Source: Streptosporangium sp. NBC_01756 | Lineage (GTDB): Bacteria; Actinomycetota; Actinomycetes; Streptosporangiales; Streptosporangiaceae | Direction: 5' to 3' | DNA length: 64,000 bases | Assembly (NCBI RefSeq): GCF_035917975.1 | Contig: NZ_CP109130.1 | Coordinates: forward strand, 1 to 64,000 | Part shown: positions 4,978 to 33,727 of the stretch, piece by piece | Numbering within the stretch: the stretch's first letter is position 1 | Layout of the letters: each line of letters starts with the position of its first letter | Notes under the pieces: model-generated | What the model was told of the DNA's origin: nothing | The model's database searches: none | What the model saw: only the letters and a program-made list of their open reading frames with translations | Program-made: the position numbers and the translations under genes

Positions 4978-6810
4978 ATGACGCACGAGGACCGCGCCCA
5001 CCACGGCATCCAGGCAGCAGGAGACGACAAGGACAACCGGCCGTCTGCCGAGCTCCCGGTCGAGAAGCCCGAAGACCCGCCTACCGGAGACGCCGATGTC
5101 ATCTACCACGGCGGGGAGATCGTCACGGTCTCCGATGCGCTCTTCGCGTCCGAGGAGGCAGCGCCCGAGGCGGTCGTCGTCAAAAACGGCCTGATCGTCT
5201 TCGTCGGCGCTCACGAACAGGCCATCGCCGACTGGCAGGGCGAACACACCGTCCTTCGCGATCTCGAAGGACGAACGCTGCTCCCGGGGTTCATCGACGC
5301 GCACAGCCATCTGACCGGGATCGGGCTCCAGGCCACGATCGCGAGTCTGCTCGCCGAGCCCGACGGCGATGTCACCGACCTCGCCTCCCTCCAGGCCAAA
5401 ATGCGCGAGTTCGCCGGCAGCGAGGTCGGACGGCGATCCGAGTGGATCATCGGCTTCGGCTACGACGACGCGATGCTCACCGAGCGCCGCCACCCCGACC
5501 GCGACGATCTGGACGAGGTCTCCACCGAGCGGCCGGTGCTGGCCATCCACCAGTCCTTTCACCTGGGTGCGGTCAACAGCAAAGGCCTCGACCTGCTGGG
5601 CTACGGCCGCGCGACACCCGATCCGGACGGCGGTGTGATCCGCCGCCGTTCGCCCCTGGCCCGGCCGTACGGCGAGCCTGACGGAGTGCTGGAGGAGACC
5701 GCGTTCAACCCGGCCTCGGCGGCCGCCATCGCGGGTCTCGCCCCCGAGGATCTCGCGCAGTTCCTGCCTCGGGGCATGCGCGCGGCGGCGGGCTTCGGCT
5801 TCACCACCGTCCAGGAAGGCGCCGCGACCCTGGAGGTGCTCGGGCAGATGCGCAAGGCGGCGGCCGCGACGCCCGGCGGTCTGGCACTCGACGTGGTGGC
5901 GTACGTCCGCGCCGACGATGCCATCGCTCACCCGGACGAGGTCCAGGTGAGCGACACCTACACGAACGGCTTGCGCGCGGCCGGGATCAAGATGTTCCTG
6001 GACGGCTCGCCACAAGGCCGCACCGCGTGGCTGACCAAGCCGTACCTGACACCGCCGCCCGGGCAGGAGAAGGACTACTGCGGCTACCCGACGATCGAGG
6101 ACGACAAGCTCGCCGCGGCCCAGGTGCGCGCGGGGTTCGAGCGCGGCTGGCAAGTCATCGCCCATGCCAACGGCGACGCGGCGATCGATCAACTGATCCA
6201 CGCCGTACGTACGGCAACCGATGAAGCCGACCCGGCCGATCGTCGGACCGTCGCCATCCACGCGCAGACCGCCCGCATCGACCAGGTCGCGGCCTTCGAC
6301 GAGTTGGGCGTCCTGCCGTCCTTCTTCTCGATGCACACCTACTACTGGGGCGACTGGTACCTCGACACCGTCCTCGGACCCGAGCGCGCCGAGAACATCT
6401 CACCCGCGCAATGGGCGCTGGCCCGCGGAATGCGGTACACCTCGCACCACGACGCCCCCGTCGCGCTGCCGAACTCGATCGCGATCCTGGCCAGCCAGGT
6501 CACCCGCGTGACCCGCTCGGGCGCGGTGCTCGGCCCGCGCCAACGGGTGTCGCGCATGGACGCGGTCAGATCGCTCACACTCAACGCGGCCTACCAGTAC
6601 TTCGAGGAGGACTCCAAGGGCAGCATCGAGGTGGGCAAGCTGGCCGACCTGGTGATCTTGAGTGCGAACCCGGTCACGGTCGCGGCCGATGAGATCAGGG
6701 ACATCGAGGTCGTGGAGACGATCAAAGCGGGCCGTACCGTCCATCCGGCGGCCGAGCCGAAGGCCGACCCCGGCCCGGTGGTGTCCGTCGGGCTCGCGCC
6801 GCACTGCTGA
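4978..6810 (+). CDS. Amidohydrolase, YtcJ-like
   Basis: A 610-residue metal-dependent hydrolase of the amidohydrolase superfamily. After an unusual charged N-terminal tail of about 38 residues come the small beta-domain (DVIYHGGEIVTVSD), the strand-1 metal motif GFIDAHSH (His109, His111), FLDGSPQGRTAW, the later metal ligands in VIAHANGDAAID and VAIHAQTARID, and the C-terminal GSIEVGKLADLVIL. This order matches YtcJ-type exoenzymes and related N-acyl or formamide hydrolases; the substrate cannot be told. No signal peptide. It stands alone with weak ribosome site (GAGAGG) before the ATG. Confidence 0.85.
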   Translation: MTHEDRAHHGIQAAGDDKDNRPSAELPVEKPEDPPTGDADVIYHGGEIVTVSDALFASEEAAPEAVVVKNGLIVFVGAHEQAIADWQGEHTVLRDLEGRTLLPGFIDAHSHLTGIGLQATIASLLAEPDGDVTDLASLQAKMREFAGSEVGRRSEWIIGFGYDDAMLTERRHPDRDDLDEVSTERPVLAIHQSFHLGAVNSKGLDLLGYGRATPDPDGGVIRRRSPLARPYGEPDGVLEETAFNPASAAAIAGLAPEDLAQFLPRGMRAAAGFGFTTVQEGAATLEVLGQMRKAAAATPGGLALDVVAYVRADDAIAHPDEVQVSDTYTNGLRAAGIKMFLDGSPQGRTAWLTKPYLTPPPGQEKDYCGYPTIEDDKLAAAQVRAGFERGWQVIAHANGDAAIDQLIHAVRTATDEADPADRRTVAIHAQTARIDQVAAFDELGVLPSFFSMHTYYWGDWYLDTVLGPERAENISPAQWALARGMRYTSHHDAPVALPNSIAILASQVTRVTRSGAVLGPRQRVSRMDAVRSLTLNAAYQYFEEDSKGSIEVGKLADLVILSANPVTVAADEIRDIEVVETIKAGRTVHPAAEPKADPGPVVSVGLAPHC

Positions 6811-6954
6811 CGGCTCGACCCGCACCGACACCGGCCCCAAAGAACAACGGAACAGCCGTTGGCACCAGACAATGATCTTGGCCAGCGAAGGGCCTTGGTG
6901 TGGTGATCGCCAGGGTCCTCGGGCCTGGGCCCGATGCCCGTGGACGGAGGCCCG

Positions 6955-7878
6955 TCATGCGCATGATCGACCGAGAGAGGGCAGATTGGCGGCCACCCGG
7001 GCCGCGGTCTCGCGTAGCCAGATGTGAGCCGCGTCCTGGCCGTGCACGGGGTGCCACCACAGGGCCTCCTGAAGGGGTACCGGCTCGAACGGGCAGCGTA
7101 GCGTCCGGACGGGCGCGAGCCCGTACAGCAACCGGGCCAGGCGCCGCTGGATCAGGGCCACCCGGCGGGTGCCGGCCACCAGTTCGGGCAGCAGATGGAA
7201 GCTCTGTACCGACACCTCCACATGCGGTCTCAAGCCCAGCATGCCCAGTTGCCGGGTGACCGGCGCATCGAAGAACCGCTGGTAGACCACCCAGGGCAGC
7301 CGGGCCAGATCATCCATGGTGATGCTGTCGCCGACGTCGGGATGGTCGGCGGCGACCATGCACACCCACTCGTCGCGGTACAGCTCCACGGTGGGGAAAC
7401 CGCTGATCACGCCGTGCGGCATCAGCACCCCGTCGACACCGCCGAGCACGGTGTCGGTGGCCTCCACGATCCTGGAGTCCACATGCCGCAGGTGCAATCG
7501 CACACCGGGCGCCTCGGTGTGCAGGACCCGGGCGAGTCCGGCGCCAAAGATCGCGATCGCGTAGTCGGAGGCGAGCAGGGTGAAGTCGCGCTGTTCGGTG
7601 GCCGGATGGAAATCCGCCCGGCTGGTGAAGAGCCGCTCCAGCATGGCGCAGGCGTTCACCGCGGGCTCCCTCAGCGCGCCGCCCAGCGGGGTCAGCTCGT
7701 AGCTGTTGCCTTTCCTGACCAGAAGGTCGTCGGAGAAATGGTGACGAAGTCTGGCCAGGGCGGCGCTGGTCGCGGGCTGGCTGAGCCCGATCCGCAGGCC
7801 GGCCCGGGTGACGTTGCGCTCCTCCAGCAGCGCCCGTAGGGCCACCACGAGATTGAGGTCCAGGCTGGCGAGGTTCAC
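6955..7878 (-). CDS. LysR-family regulator of the aromatic cassette
   Basis: A 307-residue LysR-type protein when started at the GTG at 7878 (VNLASLDLNLVVALRALL), which has an AGGGG ribosome site; the reading can be extended upstream to 7914, but that extension would overlap the palindrome at 7891-7907. The N-terminal winged helix (RNVTRAGLRIGLSQPATSAALARLR) is of the NodD/LinR-like subgroup, followed by a periplasmic-binding-like effector domain. It is transcribed away from the six-gene catabolic cassette beginning at 7986 and probably activates it in response to an aromatic compound or a ring-cleavage product. Confidence 0.9.
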   Translation of the reverse strand: MNLASLDLNLVVALRALLEERNVTRAGLRIGLSQPATSAALARLRHHFSDDLLVRKGNSYELTPLGGALREPAVNACAMLERLFTSRADFHPATEQRDFTLLASDYAIAIFGAGLARVLHTEAPGVRLHLRHVDSRIVEATDTVLGGVDGVLMPHGVISGFPTVELYRDEWVCMVAADHPDVGDSITMDDLARLPWVVYQRFFDAPVTRQLGMLGLRPHVEVSVQSFHLLPELVAGTRRVALIQRRLARLLYGLAPVRTLRCPFEPVPLQEALWWHPVHGQDAAHIWLRETAARVAANLPSLGRSCA

Positions 7879-16809: not shown

Positions 16810-17322
16810 AACCCCAGGTTAGGCGAGGCGACGGCAGACAAGGAGGTAAGGCCAGTACCCCGAACGGGCGTCACTCCCTCGACCGCCGGGATCGTCGTTG
16901 ACTGGTACCACCCCATGTCAGTACAGGGCTCTGCCCTCTGCCCTCTGCCCTCTGCCCTCTGCCCTCTGCCCTCTGCCCTCTGCCCTCTGCCCTCTGCCCT
17001 CTGCCCTCTGCCCTCTGCCCTCTGCCCTCTGCCCTCACCAGGATGGTCGATCCGACCCATATCCCCGGGCTAGGACGATTGAGTCCGAGGGGTAACAGCA
17101 CAGAGGCATGGCCGCGGAGATGGCACGAGGGTGTCCGCGCTCAGTTGGTGACGACCGAGACGGGCACCCTCGCAACCGCGCTCTACGTGCAGGTGGACGA
17201 TCTGCTGAAAGCTTCGCCGGATCTGGGCCCGGCGCGGTGGCCGCGGACAAGGCCTGCTCCTCCCACGTCAACCGCCGCCCGCATTCCGGTATCCGGAGGA
17301 GCAGGCGAGTGCTCCTTGGCCG
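16810..17322. other. Intergenic region holding a 7-bp microsatellite
   Basis: No gene is supported. The main feature is the CTCTGCC array described separately. Open frames on both strands across it are by-products of the repeat (ALCPLPS or QRAEGRG reiterations). Confidence 0.6.
16929..17033. repeat. Fifteen perfect tandem copies of a 7-bp unit
   Basis: CTCTGCC is repeated 15 times without error over 105 bases, followed by a partial unit. Because 7 is not a multiple of 3, all frames cycle through the same heptapeptide. It lies between the start of the XRE regulator gene (120 bases away) and the end of the WYL regulator gene. Such perfect arrays are unusual in high-GC actinomycete DNA and are prone to slippage. 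Confidence 0.95.
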
Positions 17323-23377: not shown

Positions 23378-23733
23378 CAAGCCATATTGGCTCATAATGG
23401 CATCATTCTGGCTCCGGGTGGATGTTCAGCCGATCACGCCATGGTGGACTGACTCAGAAACTCGCACGTCAGAGGTGCGCTCGTCATACCCTTCCGATCC
23501 GCAGGGCGGAACCGAAGCCCTTCCGGATCAGTGCCTCTGTCGTAACTTGTGATTCGTGACGTTGGGCGATGTCGGCGCACACGCGAACATGCCGCATAAC
23601 GCCCCGCAGGTCTCATCTGACCTGACAAGCACCGAACTCGGTGGACAGAAGATGCCTGGTGAGCTCGCGGCGTGACCCGCTTGACCTTGACACAGTGACA
23701 AGGTCTTCACTTGTAGCCAAGGAGGTGGTCCCG
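23346..23733. other. Divergent regulatory region, no gene
   Basis: Lies between the RHH operon (minus) and the HEAT/MerR operon (plus). Both ends carry operators described separately. The middle (23410-23670) shows no recognisable coding sequence. Confidence 0.6.
23681..23716 (+). promoter_or_regulatory. MerR-type operator and promoter
   Basis: GACCTTG (23683-23689) and CAAGGTC (23699-23705) form a perfect dyad with a 9-base centre, nested between TTGACC (23681-23686) and TTCACT (23706-23711) with a 19-base spacer, the stretched geometry that MerR proteins correct. An overlapping perfect TTGACA (23687-23692) gives an alternative -35. A strong AAGGAGG site follows at 23719. Confidence 0.7.
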
Positions 23734-24402
23734 ATGACCATGCCGAAACAGGACACGGATACGATTCGAGCTTTCCAGGGGCTGGAGGACAGCAGCTCGT
23801 CGGTGCGGCTGCGGGCAGCGCTAGCGGTCGGCACGTCCCCTGACCCGCGGTTTATCGACATGCTCATCGAACGATGCGCGATCGAACCCGAGTTCTACGT
23901 GCGCGACATGCTTACATGGGCACTCACCCGCCATCCAGCATCAATGACGATCCCAGAGCTTCTCAATGAACTCCGCTCGGAGCGTGCGCAGGCACGAAGC
24001 CAGGCGTTGCACACGCTGTCCAAGATCGGAGATCGGCAAGCGTGGCCAGCGATCACACGGGCGCTTCTGGCCGACGCCGACGATGAGGTGGCGCGGAGTG
24101 CTTGGCGGACAGCGGTCGTGCTCGTGCCCGAAGACGAAGAGCCCGAGTTGGCCGCAGTGTTGTCGACCCAGCTCGGGCGCGGCGAACGTGAGATGCAGCT
24201 GAGCCTCAGCCGGGCGCTGATCGCGCTCGGTGAGGTGATTCTGCCGACTCTGCGCGCTGCGATGACGGCTCTCGACCCTCGCGTGCGCGCGCACGCGATC
24301 GCCACGGAACGGCTGCTGCGCGACCCGGATGCCGGATTCGAGTTCGCGATCGAGGAGGCGAAGCGCGCCGTAGCTCTCGGCAGGACCGGCCAAGAGGGGT
24401 GA
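23734..24402 (+). CDS. HEAT-repeat protein
   Basis: A 222-residue all-helical protein. The start is the ATG at 23734, behind AAGGAGG; the longer reading to 23641 lacks a ribosome site and runs over the operator. At least five HEAT/PBS-lyase-type helical pairs can be followed, for example SSVRLRAALAVGTSPDPRF, ERAQARSQALHTLSKIGD, EVARSAWRTAVVL and PRVRAHAIATERLLRDP. HEAT arrays usually serve as protein-protein interfaces. It is co-transcribed with the MerR-HEAT gene six bases downstream and may bind the HEAT part of that regulator. No enzymatic motif is seen. Confidence 0.85.
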   Translation: MTMPKQDTDTIRAFQGLEDSSSSVRLRAALAVGTSPDPRFIDMLIERCAIEPEFYVRDMLTWALTRHPASMTIPELLNELRSERAQARSQALHTLSKIGDRQAWPAITRALLADADDEVARSAWRTAVVLVPEDEEPELAAVLSTQLGRGEREMQLSLSRALIALGEVILPTLRAAMTALDPRVRAHAIATERLLRDPDAGFEFAIEEAKRAVALGRTGQEG

Positions 24403-24408
24403 TCGGCA

Positions 24409-25413
24409 GTGTTGATCGGTGATGTGGCACGACGGTCCGGGGTCAGCGCCCGCATGCTCAGGCATTACGATTCGCTCGGCCTGGTGCGGCCAACGGGCCG
24501 TACCGATGCCGGCTATCGCGAGTACTCCAGCGAGGACATCCAGCGGATCTTCCATATCGAGAGCCTGCGGTCATTGGGGCTGTCGCTGCGTGAAGTCAGG
24601 CGCGCGTTCGATGATCCCGGTTTCACACCCTCCGAGCTCGTTGACGACCTCATCCGCCAGACGCAAGAACGTATTGCAGATGAGACGGAACTGCTCACGC
24701 GACTCCGTAGGATCGACGCCGCGGAACCCGTCGGCTGGGAGGACGTCCTCCAAATCGTTGCACTCCTCCAGGCATTGGGGTCAAAGAGCGCTGGGAAGCG
24801 CCAGCGCGCGGCCTTGTCCTCAGTTGAAGAGGTTCCGGTGCCAGTGGAGGCATTGGTCGAGGCGGCGCTGAGCGAGACGGACCCGAACGTCGCCGGGGCC
24901 CTTCGATGGGCTTTGGCGCAATCGGGCGACAGCGGATTGGCGCTGCTGGCGGAGGGCCTCGGCTCACCCGTAGCCGAGGTACGGAAACGTGCCGTCCAGT
25001 CCATCGCTGAGATTCCGGACGGTGAGGCGACCGTACTGCTGCAGGACGCCCTCGCGAACCCCGACATCGTGGTCCGCAGGTATGCGGCTCTGGCGCTCGG
25101 GGCACGTGGAGTGACCGACGCGGTCCCGGCACTCATCGATATGGTCGTCGAGGGGGCGAACGACGTCGATGCAGCCGATGCACTGAGCGCACTGGCGAGT
25201 CGTCCCGCATTGGCGGATCAGATCGCTACCAGGCTCGTTGCTTGCCTCGCCCACAGCACGGTTGAATCGTCTGCACGTCGACGGCTGACCCAGGCGCTCG
25301 CGGATATCCCGGGAATCACAGCGGCACGCGCCCTCGCGGATCTGTCGCATGACGAAGACCGTGCCGTTGCGCTTACTGCGGCGTACATTCTCGGAATACG
25401 CAACGTACGATAA
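24409..25413 (+). CDS. MerR-family regulator fused to HEAT repeats
   Basis: A 334-residue protein beginning at a GTG. Residues 1-75 are a MerR winged helix (IGDVARRSGVSARMLRHYDS, GLVRPTGRTDAGYREYS), residues 80-115 the dimerising coiled coil (RQTQERIADETELLTRL), and residues about 130-330 form HEAT repeats (DPNVAGALRWALAQSGD, EVRKRAVQSIAEIPDG, VVRRYAALALGARGV). Typical MerR effector domains are absent, so the HEAT part probably takes that role. It likely acts on the operator at 23681-23716. The pairing with a stand-alone HEAT protein suggests a sensor partner or anti-activator arrangement. Confidence 0.88.
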   Translation: MLIGDVARRSGVSARMLRHYDSLGLVRPTGRTDAGYREYSSEDIQRIFHIESLRSLGLSLREVRRAFDDPGFTPSELVDDLIRQTQERIADETELLTRLRRIDAAEPVGWEDVLQIVALLQALGSKSAGKRQRAALSSVEEVPVPVEALVEAALSETDPNVAGALRWALAQSGDSGLALLAEGLGSPVAEVRKRAVQSIAEIPDGEATVLLQDALANPDIVVRRYAALALGARGVTDAVPALIDMVVEGANDVDAADALSALASRPALADQIATRLVACLAHSTVESSARRRLTQALADIPGITAARALADLSHDEDRAVALTAAYILGIRNVR

Positions 25414-26019: not shown

Positions 26020-29000
26020 TTAAACGACAGGCTGAGGCTCCACAGCTGTCTTCCGGGCTCCAAGCGGCCCGAAGTCATAGATCGTGTTGTTCACCTGCAG
26101 TCCGTCGATCGCGCCAATGAAGGCGGTGTCCATCCTGAACCCAAGACTCAGTGTGATCACCGCGTCCGGCAGCGCGGCCTTGAGTTGGTCGAACGAACAC
26201 GGAGAAGCCAAAGTGCAGTTGATCAAGATTCCCGTCGCCCCGGTGGCATACCACTTGCTGCCGACTGCGCTGGCGTCGTATTGCTGCCAAGCATTGGGAA
26301 GCCGGGGGTCGGGAGCCGACGGGCTGGTAGAGGTACCAGGCAGATAGATCAAGGTCGCGTAGTCCGCCGAGCCCACATTGGGATCAACCTCTATGTTCAG
26401 CCCTGGCACGGAGACTTCCCCCGGAGATTTGGTGCCCGCGAACGCCCAGTACTTCAGAGTGATGAGATCACTGATCGACAACTCTGCAAAGTCCGTCTCG
26501 TTGCCGAAAGTGATCTTGTCTGGGCTGTCGCCAACGATGATTCCCAAGCTGCCGACGCCATAGGGCGGCGGTGCGGTGGCCGAGGAGCTACTGGCAGGGT
26601 CTCGGCTATACGGGCCAACACGATAGACGGCACTCGGCCCACCCTCTGATTCGCGGCCGATGACGCCCCACCTATCGGTGCAACAGAGTGCCGACCCAGG
26701 AGGTCCTTGAGGTCCCGTTTCTCCCTGCGGTCCCGCAGGCCCAGTCGCGCCCGCAACTCCTTCCGGTCCTGCAGGTCCTTCCGGTCCCGTGGCACCTATT
26801 GCTCCCGCAGGTCCCGTCGAGCCTTCCGGCCCCGCAGGTCCCTCCGCGCCCTGCGGCCCTGCAGGTCCTTCCGCTCCGGTCGCGCCCGTCGGGCCTATTG
26901 CTCCCGCAGGTCCCGTCGCACCTTCCGGTCCCGCAGGCCCTGCTTCTCCTTGCGGCCCTGCAGGTCCTTCCGGCCCCGTCGCGCCTTCTGGTCCCGCAGG
27001 CCCAGTCGCGCCCGTCGCGCCCGTCGCGCCCGCAACTCCTTCCGGCCCTGCCGGTCCTTCCGACCCCGTTGCGCCTTCTGGTCCCGCAGGTCCCGTCTCT
27101 CCCTGCGGTCCCGCAGGCCCAGTCGCGCCCGTCGCGCCCGCAACTCCTTCCGGTCCTGCAGGCCCTGCTTCTCCCTGCGGCCCTGCAGGTCCTTCCGACC
27201 CCGTCGCGCCTTCTGGTCCCGCAGGTCCCGTCTCTCCCTGCGGTCCCGCAGGCCCAGTCGCGCCTATTGCTCCCGCAGGTCCCGTCGCACCTTCCGGCCC
27301 TGCAGGCCCTGCTTCTCCCTGCGGCCCTGCAGGTCCTTCCGGCCCCGTCGCGCCTTCTGGTCCCGCAGGCCCAGTCGCGCCCGTCGCGCCCGTCGCGCCC
27401 GCAACTCCTTCCGGCCCCGCAGGTCCTTCCGCTCCAGTCGCGCCCGTCGCGCCTATTGCTCCCGCAGGTCCCATCGAGCCTTCCGGTCCCGCAGGCCCAG
27501 TCGCGCCCGTCGCGCCCGTCGCGCCCGCAACTCCTTCCGGCCCCGCAGGTCCTTCCGCTCCAGTCGCGCCCGTCGCGCCTATTGCTCCCGCAGGTCCCAT
27601 CGAGCCTTCCGGTCCCGCAGGCCCTGCTTCTCCCTGCGGCCCTGCAGGTCCTTCCGCGCCCGTCGCGCCCGCAGCTCCTTCCGGTCCCGTCGCACCCACT
27701 GGTCCTTCCGGTCCTGCAGGTCCCGTCTCTCCCTGCGGTCCCGCAGGCCCAGTCGCGCCCATCGCGCCCGCAACTCCTTCCGGCCCTACAGGTCCTTCCG
27801 CTCCCATCGCTCCAGTCGCGCCTATTGCTCCCGCAGGTCCCATCGAGCCTTCCGGCCCCGCAGGCCCTGCTTCTCCCTGCGGCCCTTCTGGTCCCGCAGG
27901 TCCCGTCGAGCCTTCCGGCCCTGCCGGTCCTTCCGGTCCCATCGCGCCCGTCGCGCCTATTGCTCCCGCAGGTCCCGTCGCACCTTCCGCTCCCTGCGGC
28001 CCTGCCGGTCCTTCCGACCCCGTTGCGCCTTCTGGTCCCGCAGGTCCCGTCTCTCCCTGCGGTCCCGCAGGCCCAGTCGCGCCTATTGCTCCCGCAGGTC
28101 CCGTCGAGCCTTCCGGCCCCGCAGGCCCTGTTTCTCCCTGCGGCCCTGCAGGTCCTTCCGGCCCCGTCGCGCCTTCTGGTCCCGCAGGCCCAGTCGCGCC
28201 CGTCGCGCCTATTGCTCCCGCAGGTCCCATCGAGCCTTCCGGTCCCGCAGGCCCTGCTTCTCCCTGCGGCCCTGCAGGTCCTTCCGCGCCCGTCGCGCCC
28301 GCAGCTCCTTCCGGTCCCGTCGCACCCACTGGTCCTTCCGGTCCTGCAGGTCCCGTCTCTCCCTGCGGTCCCGCAGGCCCAGTCGCGCCCATCGCGCCCG
28401 CAACTCCTTCCGGCCCTACAGGTCCTTCCGCTCCCATCGCTCCAGTCGCGCCTATTGCTCCCGCAGGTCCCATCGAGCCTTCCGGCCCCGCAGGCCCTGC
28501 TTCTCCCTGCGGCCCTGCAGGTCCTTCCGCGCCCGTCGCGCCCGCAGCTCCTTCCGGTCCCGTCGCACCCACTGGTCCTTCCGGTCCTGCAGGTCCCGTC
28601 TCTCCCTGCGGTCCCGCAGGCCCAGTCGCGCCCATCGCGCCCGCAACTCCTTCCGGCCCTACAGGTCCTTCCGCTCCAGTCGCGCCTATTGCTCCCGCAG
28701 GTCCCATCGCACCTTCCGCTCCCTGCGGCCCTGCTTCTCCCTGCGGCCCTGCAGGTCCTTCCGCTCCCTGCGGCCCTGCCGGTCCTTCCGGCCCCGTCGC
28801 GCCTTCTGGTCCCGCAGGCCCAGTCGCGCCCGTCGCGCCTATTGCTCCCGCAGGCCCAGTCGCGCCCATCGCGCCCGCAACTCCTTCCGGCCCTACAGGT
28901 CCTTCCGCTCCAGTCGCGCCTATTGCTCCCGCAGGTCCCATCGCACCTTCCGCTCCCTGCGGCCCTGCTTCTCCCTGCGGCCCTGCAGGTCCTTCCGCTC

Positions 29001-29769
29001 CCTGCGGCCCTGCCGGTCCTTCCGGCCCCGTCGCGCCTTCTGGTCCCGCAGGCCCAGTCGCGCCCGTCGCGCCTATTGCTCCCGCAGGTCCCGTCGCGCC
29101 CGCAACTCCTTCCGGTCCCGTCGCACCCACTGGTCCTTCCGGCCCTGCAGGTCCTTCCGCTCCCGTCGCGCCCGTCGCGCCTATTGCTCCCGCAGGTCCC
29201 GTCGCGCCCGCAACTCCTTCCGGTCCCGTCGCACCCACTGGTCCTTCCGGCCCTGCAGGTCCTTCCGCTCCCGTCGCGCCCGTCGCGCCTATTGCTCCCG
29301 CAGGTCCCGTCGCGCCCGCAACTCCTTCCGGTCCTGCAGGCCCTGGCATGCCAGCCTCACCTACAGGGCCTTCTAGGCCCTGAGGGCCATATGGGCCAGT
29401 TCGACCCGTTGTGCCCTTTGGTCCTTTGCTACCTTTCGGCCCGCGCGGGCCATGCAGGCATACACAAAGCTTGCTCCTGCACCTACACGGCTTGCAGCAC
29501 CTCTTCGGGCAATGACTCCTTGCATAGACGTGTGGCTTTCGGGAGATGGCGCCAGGAGGGCAAGCCCGAACTGACTTTCCCTCCTTGACTTGTGCGACCA
29601 GGTGAACGTTGCTCAGTTTTTCCTTGAGTACATTTGCCTGCATTTGGAATGATATAGCTAAAAAAACGCCGATCAGAAGCACCGTAACGCCTCGGCTTCG
29701 AGCGCGCCCGCTGGGTCGTGGGATCACGATGCGCCTGCTACCGGTGAAATTCATGCTATTCCGTGTCAT
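26020..29769 (-). CDS. Membrane-anchored collagen-like protein
   Basis: About 1249 residues from the ATG at 29769 (a second possible start, MNFTGSRR, lies at 29754). Layout: basic N-terminus; a membrane segment at about residues 28-45 ([14 protein letters not shown]); a short linker ending in a Cys-rich block [18 protein letters not shown]; then some 300 uninterrupted Gly-X-Y triplets (about 107-1025) rich in GPAG, GATG, GPEG and GPQG; and a C-terminal globular domain of 224 residues starting ALCCTDRWG, with [26 protein letters not shown] and a final YDFGPLG, probably a trimerising or carbohydrate-binding beta sandwich. The topology suggests a surface rod tethered to the membrane, with Cys clusters at both ends of the rod able to lock the trimer. 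Near-identical blocks inside show recent internal duplication. Confidence 0.9.
27579..28646. repeat. Near-identical long repeats within the collagen-like gene
   Basis: A 195-base block at 27579-27773 recurs at 28209-28403 and 28452-28646 with at most about one residue difference, giving periods of 630 and 243 bases. Further copies of shorter blocks occur at 28680-28830/28915-29065 and 29090-29190/29205-29310. This is a higher-order array on top of the 9-base Gly-X-Y period. Confidence 0.8.
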
Positions 29770-30020
29770 TCGGGGTCCTGAGGGGGGGACTCTGTGACGC
29801 ATGGATATTAATCGTAGAGTACCCGATAAATGCTTCAAAATGCATCGACTCGACCACTGAACCGTAAATTATGAATATGATGACAGGAAAACGACGAAGG
29901 GCAGTCTATTGAGGTTTATATACATATGCACAAGGACTTTATGTTGCGATCTTGGATCTGTGGTTAATTAAATTCATAGTGACGGCTTTTGTGTATTTTG
30001 CGGGGGAAGGTGGGGGAACC
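29770..30020. other. AT-rich spacer upstream of the collagen-like gene
   Basis: Markedly AT-richer than the surroundings, for example around 29870-29970 (runs such as GGTTTATATACATATG). No gene. It should contain the promoter of the collagen-like gene; TTGAAG and TACGAT on the minus strand, 16 bases apart near 29840-29815, are a candidate pair. Confidence 0.5.
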
Positions 30021-31202
30021 CTAAAGCTTGTCGGCGGCCACTGCGTTCGCAGAGGGTTGGCGCGGTGGGCAGGTCATACGCTTGGCTGTCGTGGACAGCA
30101 GTTTGGCTTGAGGCTGGCTGCCACACGTTGGCCCGCATTCCTCAAGCAAGCAGAAGCCCTGGGAGTCGACGGCCTGGATGAAGGCCGGTGACGTGCTGCC
30201 GTCCAGTTCGGTCACGCCGGGGAAGACGGCGACGATCTCATGTACGCCTTCGGAGAGGGGGGCGACGGTCAACTCGGCGTGGCCTGTGCCATCGAGCTGG
30301 GCTGTGCCCAGACTCACTCCGTCACTGAAGAATTCGACCGGGCCGGTGGGAACGATCCCGCTCGGAGATCTCACCGCCGCAGTGAAGGTGATCGGACTTT
30401 GCTGACTGATGGCGCACGACGAGTTCACCGTGGTGGTCGTGGACCTGTCGGGAGGACCCGCGCAGGTAGACAGGGTGATGGTGTTCGCGTCCAGCGAGAC
30501 GGTGCCGTTGTGAGCCAGGGTTCGACCATCCACAGTCACGCCGCTGCCCACCGTGATCGAGGTCAGCGCGAGAATGTCGCCGGCGAAGTCGGTAGTGGCT
30601 CCCAGCGTGGCCGAGCTGCCTACCTGCCAGAAGACGTTGCATGCCTGTGCCCCCCCGGTGAGGGTCACCGTGCTGGCGGCTGCGGTGATGAGGGTGGAGG
30701 CGGTCTGGAAGATGAAGACCGCGTTGGGGTCACCCTGGGCGTCGAGCGTCAGATTTCCCGTGATCTGGAATGTGCCCGCGGCGGAGTTGTAGACGCCGGG
30801 GGTCACGGTGGTTCCACCCAGCTGTGTCGGGATGGTGGCGCCAGGAGTACGGGAGACGGCGTCGTTGTAGGCGATGAGCAGATCCGCCTGAGCCTGTGCG
30901 GCAGCGGTGTCGGCAACGTGGAGGGTCCCGATCAAGGTGCCGGGCGGGAAGCCGGTCACCGCAGGGGTCGGGCTGGTCCCCAGATCTCCGGTGACGATGG
31001 TGGGGCCGATGTTCGTGACAGAAGCCCCGCCCAGGACTGCGAAGTTCGCAGCTGTGCCCAGCGCGACCGGTGCCGCCAATGCGCTCGCGGCGCAAGGTGC
31101 CGGGACGATGCCTCCTGTCGCGATCAGGACCGTGAGGACCCATCCCAGCAAGGAGCGAACGATGTTTTGTGATACAAGGCGGGGGCCACCGGCGTCTGTC
31201 AT
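30021..31202 (-). CDS. Secreted DUF3494 (ice-binding-like) protein with Ig-like domain
   Basis: A 393-residue precursor. The ATG at 31202 follows an AAGGAAAG site. A long signal peptide (GWVLTVLIATGGIVPAPC, cleavage near ALAAP) leads into a DUF3494 beta-solenoid (about 45-240): FAVLGGASVTNIG, GDLGTSPTPAVTGFPPG, TAAASTVTLTGGAQACNVFW, QVGSSATLG and DANTITLSTC. This is the fold of microbial ice-binding proteins, though many members are adhesins. A bacterial Ig-like domain follows (SSCAISQQSPITFTAAVR ... GTAQLDGTGHAELTVAP). A Cys-containing basic tail closes it. No anchor is seen. It lies upstream of the collagen-like gene on the same strand; the shared context suggests joint work at the cell surface. 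Confidence 0.88.
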   Translation of the reverse strand: MTDAGGPRLVSQNIVRSLLGWVLTVLIATGGIVPAPCAASALAAPVALGTAANFAVLGGASVTNIGPTIVTGDLGTSPTPAVTGFPPGTLIGTLHVADTAAAQAQADLLIAYNDAVSRTPGATIPTQLGGTTVTPGVYNSAAGTFQITGNLTLDAQGDPNAVFIFQTASTLITAAASTVTLTGGAQACNVFWQVGSSATLGATTDFAGDILALTSITVGSGVTVDGRTLAHNGTVSLDANTITLSTCAGPPDRSTTTTVNSSCAISQQSPITFTAAVRSPSGIVPTGPVEFFSDGVSLGTAQLDGTGHAELTVAPLSEGVHEIVAVFPGVTELDGSTSPAFIQAVDSQGFCLLEECGPTCGSQPQAKLLSTTAKRMTCPPRQPSANAVAADKL

Positions 31203-31629
31203 CAAACTGCTCTTTCCTTCAGCATGGCTCAGTTCAGGCCCATTACCGATGACGCTTCATATCCTTCAAGCTTACTAATCAGCAGTTTGGTTCCTTGTCA
31301 TCCGACATGCGGGAGAAAAATACTGGATGTCATCTCTGGACAAAAGATGGGATCGCCATGGCGTCCGGCAGTACTTTTCATCACCCAGGCGCCGAATAAC
31401 GTTCGCTTCACGGCATGTCAGCATTAACTAGTCAATATCATCCCTAAGTGAGAATCGGCTGCCAGGCGCTCACTTCATCCTGCGCATAGAACCGTGCAGA
31501 GAGGCGAGGGAGCGTCACCCTTACGACCTCGTGCATGATTGGCCGTGGTCTCTGAGGTCCTGGCTCATTGGGCCAGACGTGGTGAGAACACTCGGACGGA
31601 CGATCACCCTGGAAATCGGCGGATCACGA
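31203..31629. other. AT-richer intergenic region
   Basis: About 430 bases with lower GC than average and no gene. The left part should carry the promoter for the DUF3494 gene. The right part leads into the IS5-type remnant; no clear terminal inverted repeat for that element was seen. Confidence 0.45.
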
Positions 31630-32312
31630 CCTGTCGGTTGAGGTGATTGCGGAACCGGTAGCCGAGATCGGACCGCTGTGGCAGGCCCGGCACCAGGCCG
31701 CGCTCGCCAGTCGCCCGTGAGGGTGCAACATCGGTGCCGAAGCCAGGCCCAAGCTGGTGTTCGTCGACCGACTGCCGGCCGCACTGGTGCACCCGCGCCA
31801 CGGCGTCATGCACGATGTGTTGGGTTGCCGGTTCGGCGTCGACCGCTCCACCGTCACCCGCGCCATCCACCAGATCCGCCCCTTATTGGTCGAACGAGGT
31901 TGCAGCATCACTGCGGGGCGGCGCTTGCGGACCCTGGCCGATGTGATCGCCCACCTGGGAAGCAGCAGCCAGGAGGCGATCTTGGACGCCACCGAGATCC
32001 GGGGGCGCCGACCGGCCGCCGGCGCTCCCGAACGAGATCGCTTCATCTCTGGCAAAAGCCGGATGAACGCGATGAAGACGATGGTCCTCACCGATCTCCA
32101 AGGGGGCCTGCTGCGATGCGGCGAAACCCGCCTCGGATCGGTCGCCGACATTACCCATGCCCGCCAGTCCGGGTTGGTCGGCCTGCTGGCCGATACTCGC
32201 GGCCTGCAGATTTTCGCTGATGCGGGCTACTCGGGCCTGGGCGGCCAGACCGCAGGCCAGGTCCTCACCCCACCTCGCAAACGACGCGGTAGAAACCTGG
32301 AACAGGTCCTAG
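31630..32312 (+). pseudogene. IS5-family (DDE_Tnp_4 type) transposase, decayed and interrupted
   Basis: The reading contains VFVDRLPAALVHPRHGVMHD, FGVDRSTVTRAI, EAILDATEIRGRRP, FISGKSRMNAMKTMVLTD and FADAGYSGLG, that is the helix-turn-helix and first two catalytic Asp regions of this transposase group. Upstream coding (PLWQARHQAALASRP) is cut from it by a TGA, so the gene is already frameshifted. It stops at 32312 because an IS701-like element is inserted; weak continuation (EMTRRLSRKGSR) appears after the element at 33733-33783. Confidence 0.75.
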
Positions 32313-33727
32313 TAGGGCTTGGTTAGGTGGGGACGGGCTGGGCATGTCGGGGTAACGCTCGGCGGCAGGTGGGGCAGGATCCGGCCCAGCACGCCAGCAG
32401 GAGCTGCAGCTCGGTGATGACCTGGTAGGTGCTCAAGCCACAGCTAGGACTTTTGGGTCGAGCCGTTGCAGGGTGCAAAAGGCGTGTGCGACCGAGACCA
32501 ACGTGACGTGGTGGTGCCAGCCACTCCAGGTACGGCCCTCGAAGTGATCCAGGCCCAGCCCGGTCTTCAGCTCACGGTAGTCGTGCTCGATGCGCCAGCG
32601 GATCTTCGCCATTCTCACCAGGCGCCGCAGCGGGACGTCGCCGGGCAGGGTGGACAGCCAGTACTTGGTCGGCTCGCTCTCGCCTGGCGGCCATTCGGCC
32701 AGCAGCCAGCACACCGGCAATTCCCCGCCCGCATACGCGCGGCGGATCCGTACCCCCGCCGGCCGTACCCGCAGCGCGGCGAACCGCGAACGCAACGGCC
32801 CCTTGGACCCCATCCGCCAGCGCACCGTGTGCAGCGCGCGCCGCCCGCCCTCTGCCACCAGCTGCCGGGCGCTGATCGGCCGCTGCCGGTAGCGGGGCAC
32901 CGGCCGCCGCCCGGTCCCCGCATACGGCGCGACGCTGCGGCAGGCCCCGGCCTCCAGCAGCGCGGTATCGGAACGCACCCCCACCACATAGCCGATGCCG
33001 CGCTCGGTCAGGCCCAGGCGAAAAGCCCCGTCTTGGCCATAGCCCTCATCGGCGACCACCAGCGGTGCCTGCAGCCCCCAACTGCCCAGCTCGTCGATCA
33101 TGTCCAGCGCCAGCTGCCACTTGGGCACATGACCGACGTCGGCGGGGATCCGGGCCCGGCGCCGGCGTGCCGCCACCGCGGCCCGATCCTCCGTGCGCGG
33201 CGCGGCCGCATCCCACTGCTCAGGCACGAACAACCGCCAGTTCACCGGGCAGGACGCGGCATCGGTGACCAGATGCACGCTCGGCGCGACCTGGCAGTTC
33301 GCGGTCTTACCCAGCGCCCCGCAATACTGCGCGGCCACCCCTGGCGACTCCTGGCCGTCCTTGACAAAGGACACATCATCGACCACCCAGGCGGCCGGGC
33401 CGATCGCCGCGTCCATCCGCCAGGCCAGCTCGGCCAAAACCAGCTGATGCGACCAGGGAGCATCAGTGAGGAACTGCTGCAGCCCTTGGCGGTCCACGCC
33501 CAGCCGGGCCGCCATCGGCTCCATCGATTTACGCGCCCCGTCGGTCAGCAGGCCGCGCACATACCGCTCGCCCCACCGCCGCTGATCAGCACGGGCGAAA
33601 CCGGAGAACATCTCAGCGGCAAACGTCTCCAGCCGCGCCCGCACGGCCTCGAGTTCCAGAGGGGTCATCATCCCTCACCCCCAAAGCAGGTGACATACCG
33701 TCTCCTACCCGAGGTAACCAAGTCCTA
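32313..33727 (-). mobile_element. IS701-like insertion sequence, apparently complete (1415 bp)
   Basis: The left end TAGGGCTTGGTTA (32313-) and the right end, which reads TAGGACTTGGTTA inward on the other strand (33727-), form imperfect terminal inverted repeats (12 of 13). CTAG flanks both sides (32309-32312 and 33728-33731) as a 4-bp target duplication. One transposase gene fills most of the element. The insertion lies within an older IS5-type transposase. Confidence 0.85.
32433..33671 (-). CDS. IS701-family transposase
   Basis: A 412-residue DDE transposase. The N-terminal part reads RRWGERYVRGLLTDGARKSM and WVVDDVSFVKDG (first Asp pair), the middle VVADEGYGQDGAFR (second Asp), and the C-terminal RWRIEHDYRELKTGLGLDHF (catalytic Glu in a YREK-like motif), all in the order and spacing of IS701 family proteins. 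No frameshift is seen, so the element may still be active. It opens with MM near 33671, 56 bases inside the right end. Confidence 0.92.
   Translation of the reverse strand: MMTPLELEAVRARLETFAAEMFSGFARADQRRWGERYVRGLLTDGARKSMEPMAARLGVDRQGLQQFLTDAPWSHQLVLAELAWRMDAAIGPAAWVVDDVSFVKDGQESPGVAAQYCGALGKTANCQVAPSVHLVTDAASCPVNWRLFVPEQWDAAAPRTEDRAAVAARRRRARIPADVGHVPKWQLALDMIDELGSWGLQAPLVVADEGYGQDGAFRLGLTERGIGYVVGVRSDTALLEAGACRSVAPYAGTGRRPVPRYRQRPISARQLVAEGGRRALHTVRWRMGSKGPLRSRFAALRVRPAGVRIRRAYAGGELPVCWLLAEWPPGESEPTKYWLSTLPGDVPLRRLVRMAKIRWRIEHDYRELKTGLGLDHFEGRTWSGWHHHVTLVSVAHAFCTLQRLDPKVLAVA

Follow-up and report, generated by a model that had tools for sequence, protein, structure and literature searches.

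Does the close neighbourhood of a long collagen-like gene and a DUF3494 (ice-binding-like) gene in Streptosporangium sp. NBC_01756 reflect a partnership of their products, or only a shared place in the genome? The two genes lie in a stretch of 64,000 nucleotides that was analysed as a whole and is called the window here. As an earlier note on this DNA had indicated, they are adjacent ORFs on one strand, the DUF3494 gene (30021-31205, minus) preceding the collagen gene (26020-29838, minus). The features of the locus are as follows.

26020-29838, minus strand: collagen-like protein of at most 1272 amino acids (ORF and Pfam profile)
26023-26691, minus strand: C-terminal domain (CTD), jelly-roll/CBM-like in the model (profile search, alignments A1 and A2, structure model)
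26689-29451, minus strand: rod of 307 uninterrupted Gly-X-Y triplets (triplet count)
29458-29562, minus strand: basic Cys cluster ahead of the rod, 8 Cys (sequence)
29629-29688, minus strand: signal-peptide-like hydrophobic stretch, residues 51-70 (by eye)
29839-30020, no strand: AT-rich spacer (41.8% GC) that can be aligned across three genomes of the genus
30021-31205, minus strand: DUF3494 type A secreted protein, 394 amino acids from TTG, with an ATG at 31202 (ORF and profiles)
30024-30167, minus strand: Cys tail with the motif GFC-x(2-5)-C, found in 8/8 collagen-linked copies
30168-30419, minus strand: Ig-like domain PF16640 (E 3.1e-15)
30474-31037, minus strand: ice-binding-like beta-solenoid PF11999 (E 8.6e-62; nearest PDB entry by sequence 6eio)
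31206-31335, minus strand: conserved leader upstream of the DUF3494 gene, common to some other DUF3494 genes (alignment, genus search)

Organization of the locus

The collagen-like protein matches PF01391 along its rod (E 2.2e-131; 428.1 bits against a cut-off of 27.2). Its TTG at 29838 is the start of the longest ORF only, and ATG codons in the same frame occur at 29802, 29769 and 29754. In the numbering of that ORF the rod occupies residues 130-1050; the earlier estimate of some 300 triplets thus corresponds to 307, counted with no break. The Cys clusters described for both rod ends are also present: eight Cys ahead of it (residues 93-127) and CC at 1052-1053 behind it, and a further Cys pair (1208/1214) lies inside the CTD. 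The protein had been called membrane-anchored, which is doubtful, because the hydrophobic stretch looks like a cleavable Sec signal and inspection of the C-terminus by eye revealed neither LPXTG nor a hydrophobic segment. Ala-rich sites follow this stretch in several relatives.

The upstream protein is a DUF3494 solenoid with an Ig-like domain and a Cys-bearing tail, as had been proposed. PF11999 is matched over positions 1-208 of its 208 (208.9 bits against a cut-off of 28.7), and the tail Cys are residues 352, 357, 361 and 379. A structure model of this protein (pLDDT 44.5) was too poor for use. The spacer is indeed AT-rich, the GC content of the window being 68.2%. On the upstream side, transposase genes (31757-32326 and 32433-33671) account for the insertion-sequence flank given in the earlier note, whereas its 'integrase remnant' at ~25.4-25.9 kb gave no Pfam match when two frames were scanned at E 0.01, and that segment is integrase-like in look on reading only.

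Recurrence of the pair

Absence of the pair from related genomes had been named as a refuting outcome, but the DUF3494-collagen pair was found in 7 of 297 family genomes at 8 loci, two of them in the genome of the window; these loci are defined by a CTD on a long rod or on a shortened relative of it. Type A DUF3494 lies upstream of the rod and CTD in all six loci contained on one contig, and we infer the same order across contig ends for two. The loci span four genera, with CTDs 55-89% identical, and agree in gene order, strand and domain structure. At the 27 other CTD places DUF3494 was absent from the stretch fetched (27/27; the DUF3494 counts at CTD places used a profile built from sense rows). 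The pair is real.

When the type A Ig and tail module was searched against the 297 genomes, the eight best matches were exactly the eight rod and CTD loci (at least 130 bits, vs 88 for the next best), and the tail motif found in all eight collagen-linked copies occurred in 0/15 other DUF3494 loci examined. DUF3494 genes occur in 77/297 family genomes, and collagen lies within 1.5 kb of them in 1/29 family loci and 3/29 phylum loci; linkage to collagen is thus no general property of DUF3494 genes. PF01391 matches at three places, L025, L027 and L028, were excluded as collagen genes, being antisense frames or Gly/Pro-rich parts of other proteins, and two weak PF01391 matches (5001662 and 8122165) were left out. 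The distances of the two partners correlate across the eight pairs (Pearson 0.69, Mantel P = 0.0008; Spearman weaker, 0.44), a correlation that could arise from common ancestry alone.

The Cys cluster precedes the rod in 8/8 rod and CTD copies, and the rod-CTD junction carries Cys in 7/8. Rod length varies: the second copy in the window's own genome, for which only 16 triplets were counted, joins in frame a Cys cluster, a short rod, the CTD and another DUF3494. Since the rod of genome G202 is broken by an IS3-like insertion, that copy may be dead.

Fusions of DUF3494 with collagen were also found in 3/29 phylum loci. Streptomyces sp. NBC_01001 carries such a fusion, and the Streptomyces fusion WP_331736772.1 bears no annotation beyond 'ice-binding family protein'. 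A pattern search at the second DUF3494 place of G319 (L239) found nothing. Proteins of the type pfam11999_pfam01391 are listed from Arctic metagenomes in PMC9957290, where the collagen repeat is classed as cell adhesion. DUF3494 and collagen domains in one protein are thus already in print, and the claim that no described bacterial system couples the two was too strong in view of the one-chain proteins listed there.

The C-terminal domain

Structure modelling of the CTD, suggested in the earlier note, gave a model of modest confidence (pLDDT 59.6, pTM 0.65) that resembles carbohydrate-binding modules (CBMs). Among the best 50 fold-search rows the closest module was CBM11 (Z 9.7, rmsd 3.4 over 153 residues), and high rows include non-CBM proteins too; the best Foldseek match had E 0.017, and none of the best 50 rows reached E 0.001. 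PDB sequence relatives were at chance level only (best E 0.13). The CTD is accordingly given a predicted carbohydrate-binding-module-like fold, with modest confidence.

A possible adhesive fibre and its alternatives

Because the genes recur together and are sometimes fused, we suggest that the pair builds one extracellular adhesive structure. Whether they act together as one unit to produce an adhesive fibre, secreted and multivalent, is, judged from the sequences, an evenly balanced question. The collagen protein would be exported by Sec and would trimerize. A collagen triple helix extends ~0.29 nm per residue, so the 921 rod residues would give a helix of ~260 nm. The Cys cluster would lock the N-terminal end of this fibre and could crosslink neighbouring rods or attach them to the wall, and the CTDs would form jelly-roll, carbohydrate-binding-like heads at the far end. 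The DUF3494 partner, secreted separately, would join the fibre via its Ig domain, its Cys tail or both, and display a face whose target would be ice, or perhaps some other ordered surface. The net effect would be that cells adhere to polysaccharide, to particles or to material that is frozen. More tentatively, a disulfide-knotted collagen with carbohydrate-binding heads and a docked DUF3494-Ig subunit with a conserved Cys tail may be an arrangement not described before, and the Streptomyces fusion may have come to the same partnership separately.

The two products might instead be separate secreted proteins of the surface or matrix that are produced in response to one condition but make no contact, their linkage reflecting common regulation. 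We regard this as rather unlikely. Regulation is where the leader bears on the question, since it is common to type A and other DUF3494 genes and hints at a DUF3494 regulon: in the genus search it preceded type A, three further DUF3494 genes as well as two remnants. In G123 and G142, genes with this leader and a related Ig domain have no adjacent CTD collagen gene, which counts against the fibre. Thirteen aligned leaders have a mean column identity of 68%. A riboswitch or other structured RNA was considered and rejected (Rfam matches below the cut-off were chance-like, folding energy was unremarkable at z 0.45, and only three consensus base pairs were found; at the gathering score, no leader match was obtained in the window and 7 other pair loci), and the leader is treated here as a putative DNA or simple 5' element. 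The AT-rich spacer, alignable in three genomes, could contain a separate promoter. Against separate proteins stand the in-frame fusions in the window's own genome and in Streptomyces, which place both modules in one chain.

A strictly ice-binding DUF3494 protein, with the rod tethering cells or biofilm to ice, would agree with its closest solved sequence relatives, 6eio (E 2.3e-55) and 5uyt (E 4.2e-49), both ice-binding proteins. It is an improbable reading nonetheless, as the CTD model resembles carbohydrate-binding folds and Streptosporangiaceae are mostly mesophilic soil actinomycetes.

The same domain raises a further, doubtful possibility. The C-terminal domain of BclA is a trimerization head that nucleates the triple helix, and the CTD could serve mainly in this way rather than in ligand binding: it directly follows the rod, often with Cys at the junction, and it also stands behind short Gly-X-Y stretches in RYN_222, in G409 and, by eye and below the 8-triplet rule of the script, in a Solirubrobacteraceae MAG (L102). 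The CTD is present in 33/297 family genomes (profile search). Against such a role, a long rod is missing at 27 of its 35 places in this family; the rod-less proteins inspected there look small and secreted.

The genes flanking the pair largely differ between loci, and the pair therefore fits 'a unit'. Apart from the pair itself, comparison between loci gave six weak matches of flanking genes (31-58% identity) and one downstream gene, in L061, similar to the fused protein of L016. That the loci share a mobile element enclosing the pair was rejected on these few flank matches and on the lack of bounding inverted repeats among the 25 listed of 43. The flanks thus fit the unit in the earlier phrase 'acquired as a unit', but acquisition by transfer is only a possibility, because rearrangement within the family could also have changed the context. 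That linkage comes only from riding the same mobile or recombining segment near IS elements is very unlikely: transposase genes beside the pair, the IS3-like insertion in G202 and the end of similarity to G202 at 26032 and 31523 are outweighed by the conservation across four genera, the fusions, the lack of bounding repeats in the same listed pairs and the absence of CTD matches in 72,556 plasmid records.

Relation to known systems

DUF3494 genes are frequent in this family, and organisms with no obvious contact with ice raise the question of their function. If the adhesive fibre is correct, the conserved collagen partner and the fusions would give the solenoid a concrete role, its display on a long fibre. 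The known set of long natural collagens would also be enlarged by members that carry both a defined Cys cluster and a globular head, of possible use for biomaterials.

Long Gly-X-Y rods are shared with the Legionella adhesin Lcl (NF046116) and the streptococcal adhesin Scl2 (NF038329), and both models score above cut-off. These scores say little beyond the presence of a rod, because the best stretches lie within it (831-1050 for NF046116, at 540.2 bits against 500; 286-493 for NF038329). Scl proteins, moreover, have a C-terminal LPXTG wall anchor, which the window protein lacks. In exosporium glycoproteins of the BclA type a collagen-like rod is likewise followed by a C-terminal beta-rich domain, of TNF/C1q type in BclA-like proteins, but the best fold matches of the CTD are carbohydrate-binding modules (best 50 rows, modest model), and no spore link is apparent. 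The modest-confidence CTD model resembles CBM11 and related beta-sandwich modules in predicted fold (Z 9.7), at only 6% identity. The same two modules are coupled in the one-chain PF11999 and PF01391 proteins, as listed in PMC9957290 and in WP_331736772.1. Compared with these, the window has two adjacent genes, a rod that itself carries a CTD and a Cys cluster, and a DUF3494 partner equipped with an Ig domain and a Cys tail.

Recurrence of the pair

The collagen-like gene and its DUF3494 partner lie in a genome of 9.0 Mb consisting of one contig.

26020-29838, minus strand: collagen-like gene, starting 182 bases downstream of the DUF3494 gene
30021-31205, minus strand: DUF3494 gene with full PF11999, Ig-like PF16640 and a Cys-bearing tail

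In the collagen-like protein, a hydrophobic stretch resembling a signal is followed by a basic cluster of Cys, then by 307 Gly-X-Y triplets without a break (the rod) and a C-terminal domain (CTD) of 223 residues, for which Pfam and NCBIfam searches returned no named family. The earlier note had counted 'some 300' triplets and placed a DUF3494 gene with an Ig-like domain and a Cys tail immediately upstream on the same strand; both descriptions hold. Elsewhere in the window, the 7-mer CTCTGCC is repeated 15.4 times in perfect tandem at 16929-17036, and two adjacent HEAT-repeat genes, the second fused to a MerR-type regulator domain, occupy 23641-25413.

Among 297 Streptosporangiaceae genomes, the CTD was matched at 35 places in 33 genomes (own genome counted), and a DUF3494 profile made from sense rows of the own genome was run over all 35 and their flanks. 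The CTD is carried on a collagen rod at 8 places in 7 genomes: the window, a second locus of the own genome (L016, with a rod of only 16 triplets by the rule of our script), G202 and G189, both of the same genus as the window, and G191, G182, G130 and G027. G189 was taken as Streptosporangium subroseum, G191 as Sphaerisporangium corydalis, G182 as Sphaerisporangium sp. TRM90804, G130 as Herbidospora mongoliensis and G027 as Acrocarpospora corrugata. In 6 of the 8 loci the gene immediately upstream, on that strand and contig, is DUF3494. In G189 and G182 the contig ends within the rod and a second contig carries a DUF3494 gene followed by the start of a rod; because of this break, the pair is only inferred there. 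The earlier note had named absence of the pair from related genomes as refuting its reading; the pair does recur there. At the other 27 CTD places, two of which are fragments (G090 and G104), neither DUF3494 nor a long rod was present within the 5.5 to 15 kb retrieved for each, a span that contig ends shortened in some cases; RYN_222 (L069) has 8 triplets. In a phylum set of 396 genomes the CTD profile matched 6, own genome counted; none of the 5 other loci had a long rod, and G409 had a short one. Short runs of Gly-X-Y precede the CTD in other actinobacteria as well (L160, L102, L069).

Specificity of the DUF3494 partner

DUF3494 occurs in 77 of the 297 family genomes and 35 of the 396 phylum genomes. 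When the best-scoring DUF3494 locus per genome was taken from genomes other than our own, Gly-X-Y runs were found within 1.5 kb of DUF3494 at 1 of 29 family loci, namely the pair of G027 itself, and at 3 of 29 phylum loci, so that the collagen link is not general for DUF3494. Within the own genome, no collagen gene accompanies the four single DUF3494 loci (L017-L020) in the fetched 15-16 kb, and the five other accepted collagen genes (L021-L024, L026) have no DUF3494 in the stretch. The L026 gene (6921-7916; genome 6263920-6264918) is collagen-like; a cluster rich in His and Cys precedes its rod, and its stretch lacks DUF3494.

With the Ig and tail part of the window's DUF3494 protein as query against the same 297 genomes, the top eight matches, at 130 bits or more, were the eight collagen loci; the next match scored 88 bits. 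Of 39 further places, the 19 next in rank were examined through 18 more fetched loci: DUF3494 was present in 15, and among these neither a GFC-x(2-5)-C tail nor a collagen gene in the stretch was found (0/15 each). One of the three loci without DUF3494, L140 of G142, contains a gene of 37 triplets; close to it, a gene at 6422-7483 shares leader, signal and Ig with the type A DUF3494 protein (the type paired with collagen) but has no detectable solenoid. The collagen link goes with type A DUF3494 and with DUF3494-collagen fusions, and the pair is real, conserved and specific.

A leader of about 130 bases upstream of the DUF3494 gene (31206-31335) could be aligned in all 8 pairs, though less well in L016, G130 and G027. 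Within the genus it also stands ahead of three further DUF3494 genes and two remnants (L173, L174, L175, L165, L140), which hints at a DUF3494 regulon. No RNA family match or convincing structure was found for it, and we regard it as a promoter or leader element that these genes have in common.

Fusions and inheritance

The downstream gene of L016 encodes in one frame of 807 residues a signal, the Cys cluster, short Gly-X-Y, the CTD and DUF3494, with both Pfam families above cut-off, collagen narrowly (28.1 versus 27.2 bits). In G191 the collagen gene is followed by a separate DUF3494 gene of the type in this fusion. The three phylum matches each join DUF3494 and collagen in frame, with runs of 62, 81 and at least 50 triplets, the third being truncated where its contig stops; all three come from a single genus in a different family. 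In G542, a fourth DUF3494 genome of that genus, the gene has no collagen run. A named relative, WP_331736772.1 of Streptomyces sp. NBC_01001, annotated 'ice-binding family protein', has 81 triplets and, read by eye, a hydrophobic C-terminus. An additional DUF3494 protein of G202 has 14 Gly-X-Pro triplets, under the Pfam cut-off.

The L016 solenoids (upstream DUF3494 gene versus fused gene) share 98.6% identity over 630 bases, although neither Cys position agrees; this suggests a recent duplication or gene conversion.

Compared between loci, the pair is what they share, alongside six weak flanking-gene matches and one downstream gene of L061 similar to the fused protein of L016. The DNA of the window resembles that of G202 over 26032-31523 and no further, and the G202 rod contains an insertion. 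This insertion of ~1.3 kb (L059 10630-11980) breaks the collagen gene and has ORFs of what we take to be an IS3-like element. Across the 8 pairs, distances of the CTD and of the DUF3494 partner are correlated (Pearson 0.69 with Mantel P = 0.0008; Spearman 0.44), which fits joint inheritance but does not prove transfer.

Proposed working

Linkage, fusions and architecture are observed; beyond them we propose that the collagen-like protein would be exported by Sec and would trimerise, with a putative Cys knot at its N-terminal end; the CTD units may form the heads of the rod, and the DUF3494-Ig subunit could dock onto the fibre. A CTD model from 12 sequences (pLDDT 59.6, pTM 0.65) was best matched by carbohydrate-binding beta-sandwiches (CBM11, Z 9.7, rmsd 3.4 over 153 residues; best Foldseek E 0.017, CBM30). 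The list also contains unrelated beta proteins at Z 8-9 (a complex I assembly factor, cyclases, a virus turret), and according to the tool the best Z of a model lacking any clear match is typically 7 to 8, so the model supports, but does not prove, a carbohydrate-binding-like fold. By sequence, the solenoid's closest solved relatives are the ice-binding proteins 6eio and 5uyt. Two solenoid Cys co-occur, the second being present in 20/20 rows with the first and 1/7 without (Fisher P = 2.4e-5; the sequences are related, and 7 of 34 rows were omitted because the first site was unreadable), as would be expected of a disulfide.

Comparison with known proteins

Among the open-licence papers listed by literature searches, none was found to describe the gene pair or a conserved unit of two genes combining CTD, Cys cluster and Cys tail; in PMC12337378 collagen is present in the reference list only. 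The earlier note's statement that it knew of no described bacterial system coupling the two is too broad, since PMC9957290 lists pfam11999_pfam01391 proteins; that paper also proposes ice-binding proteins as anchors of biofilms to ice. Both domains in one protein are thus already known, and within the open-licence papers searched it is the conserved two-gene unit that appears new.
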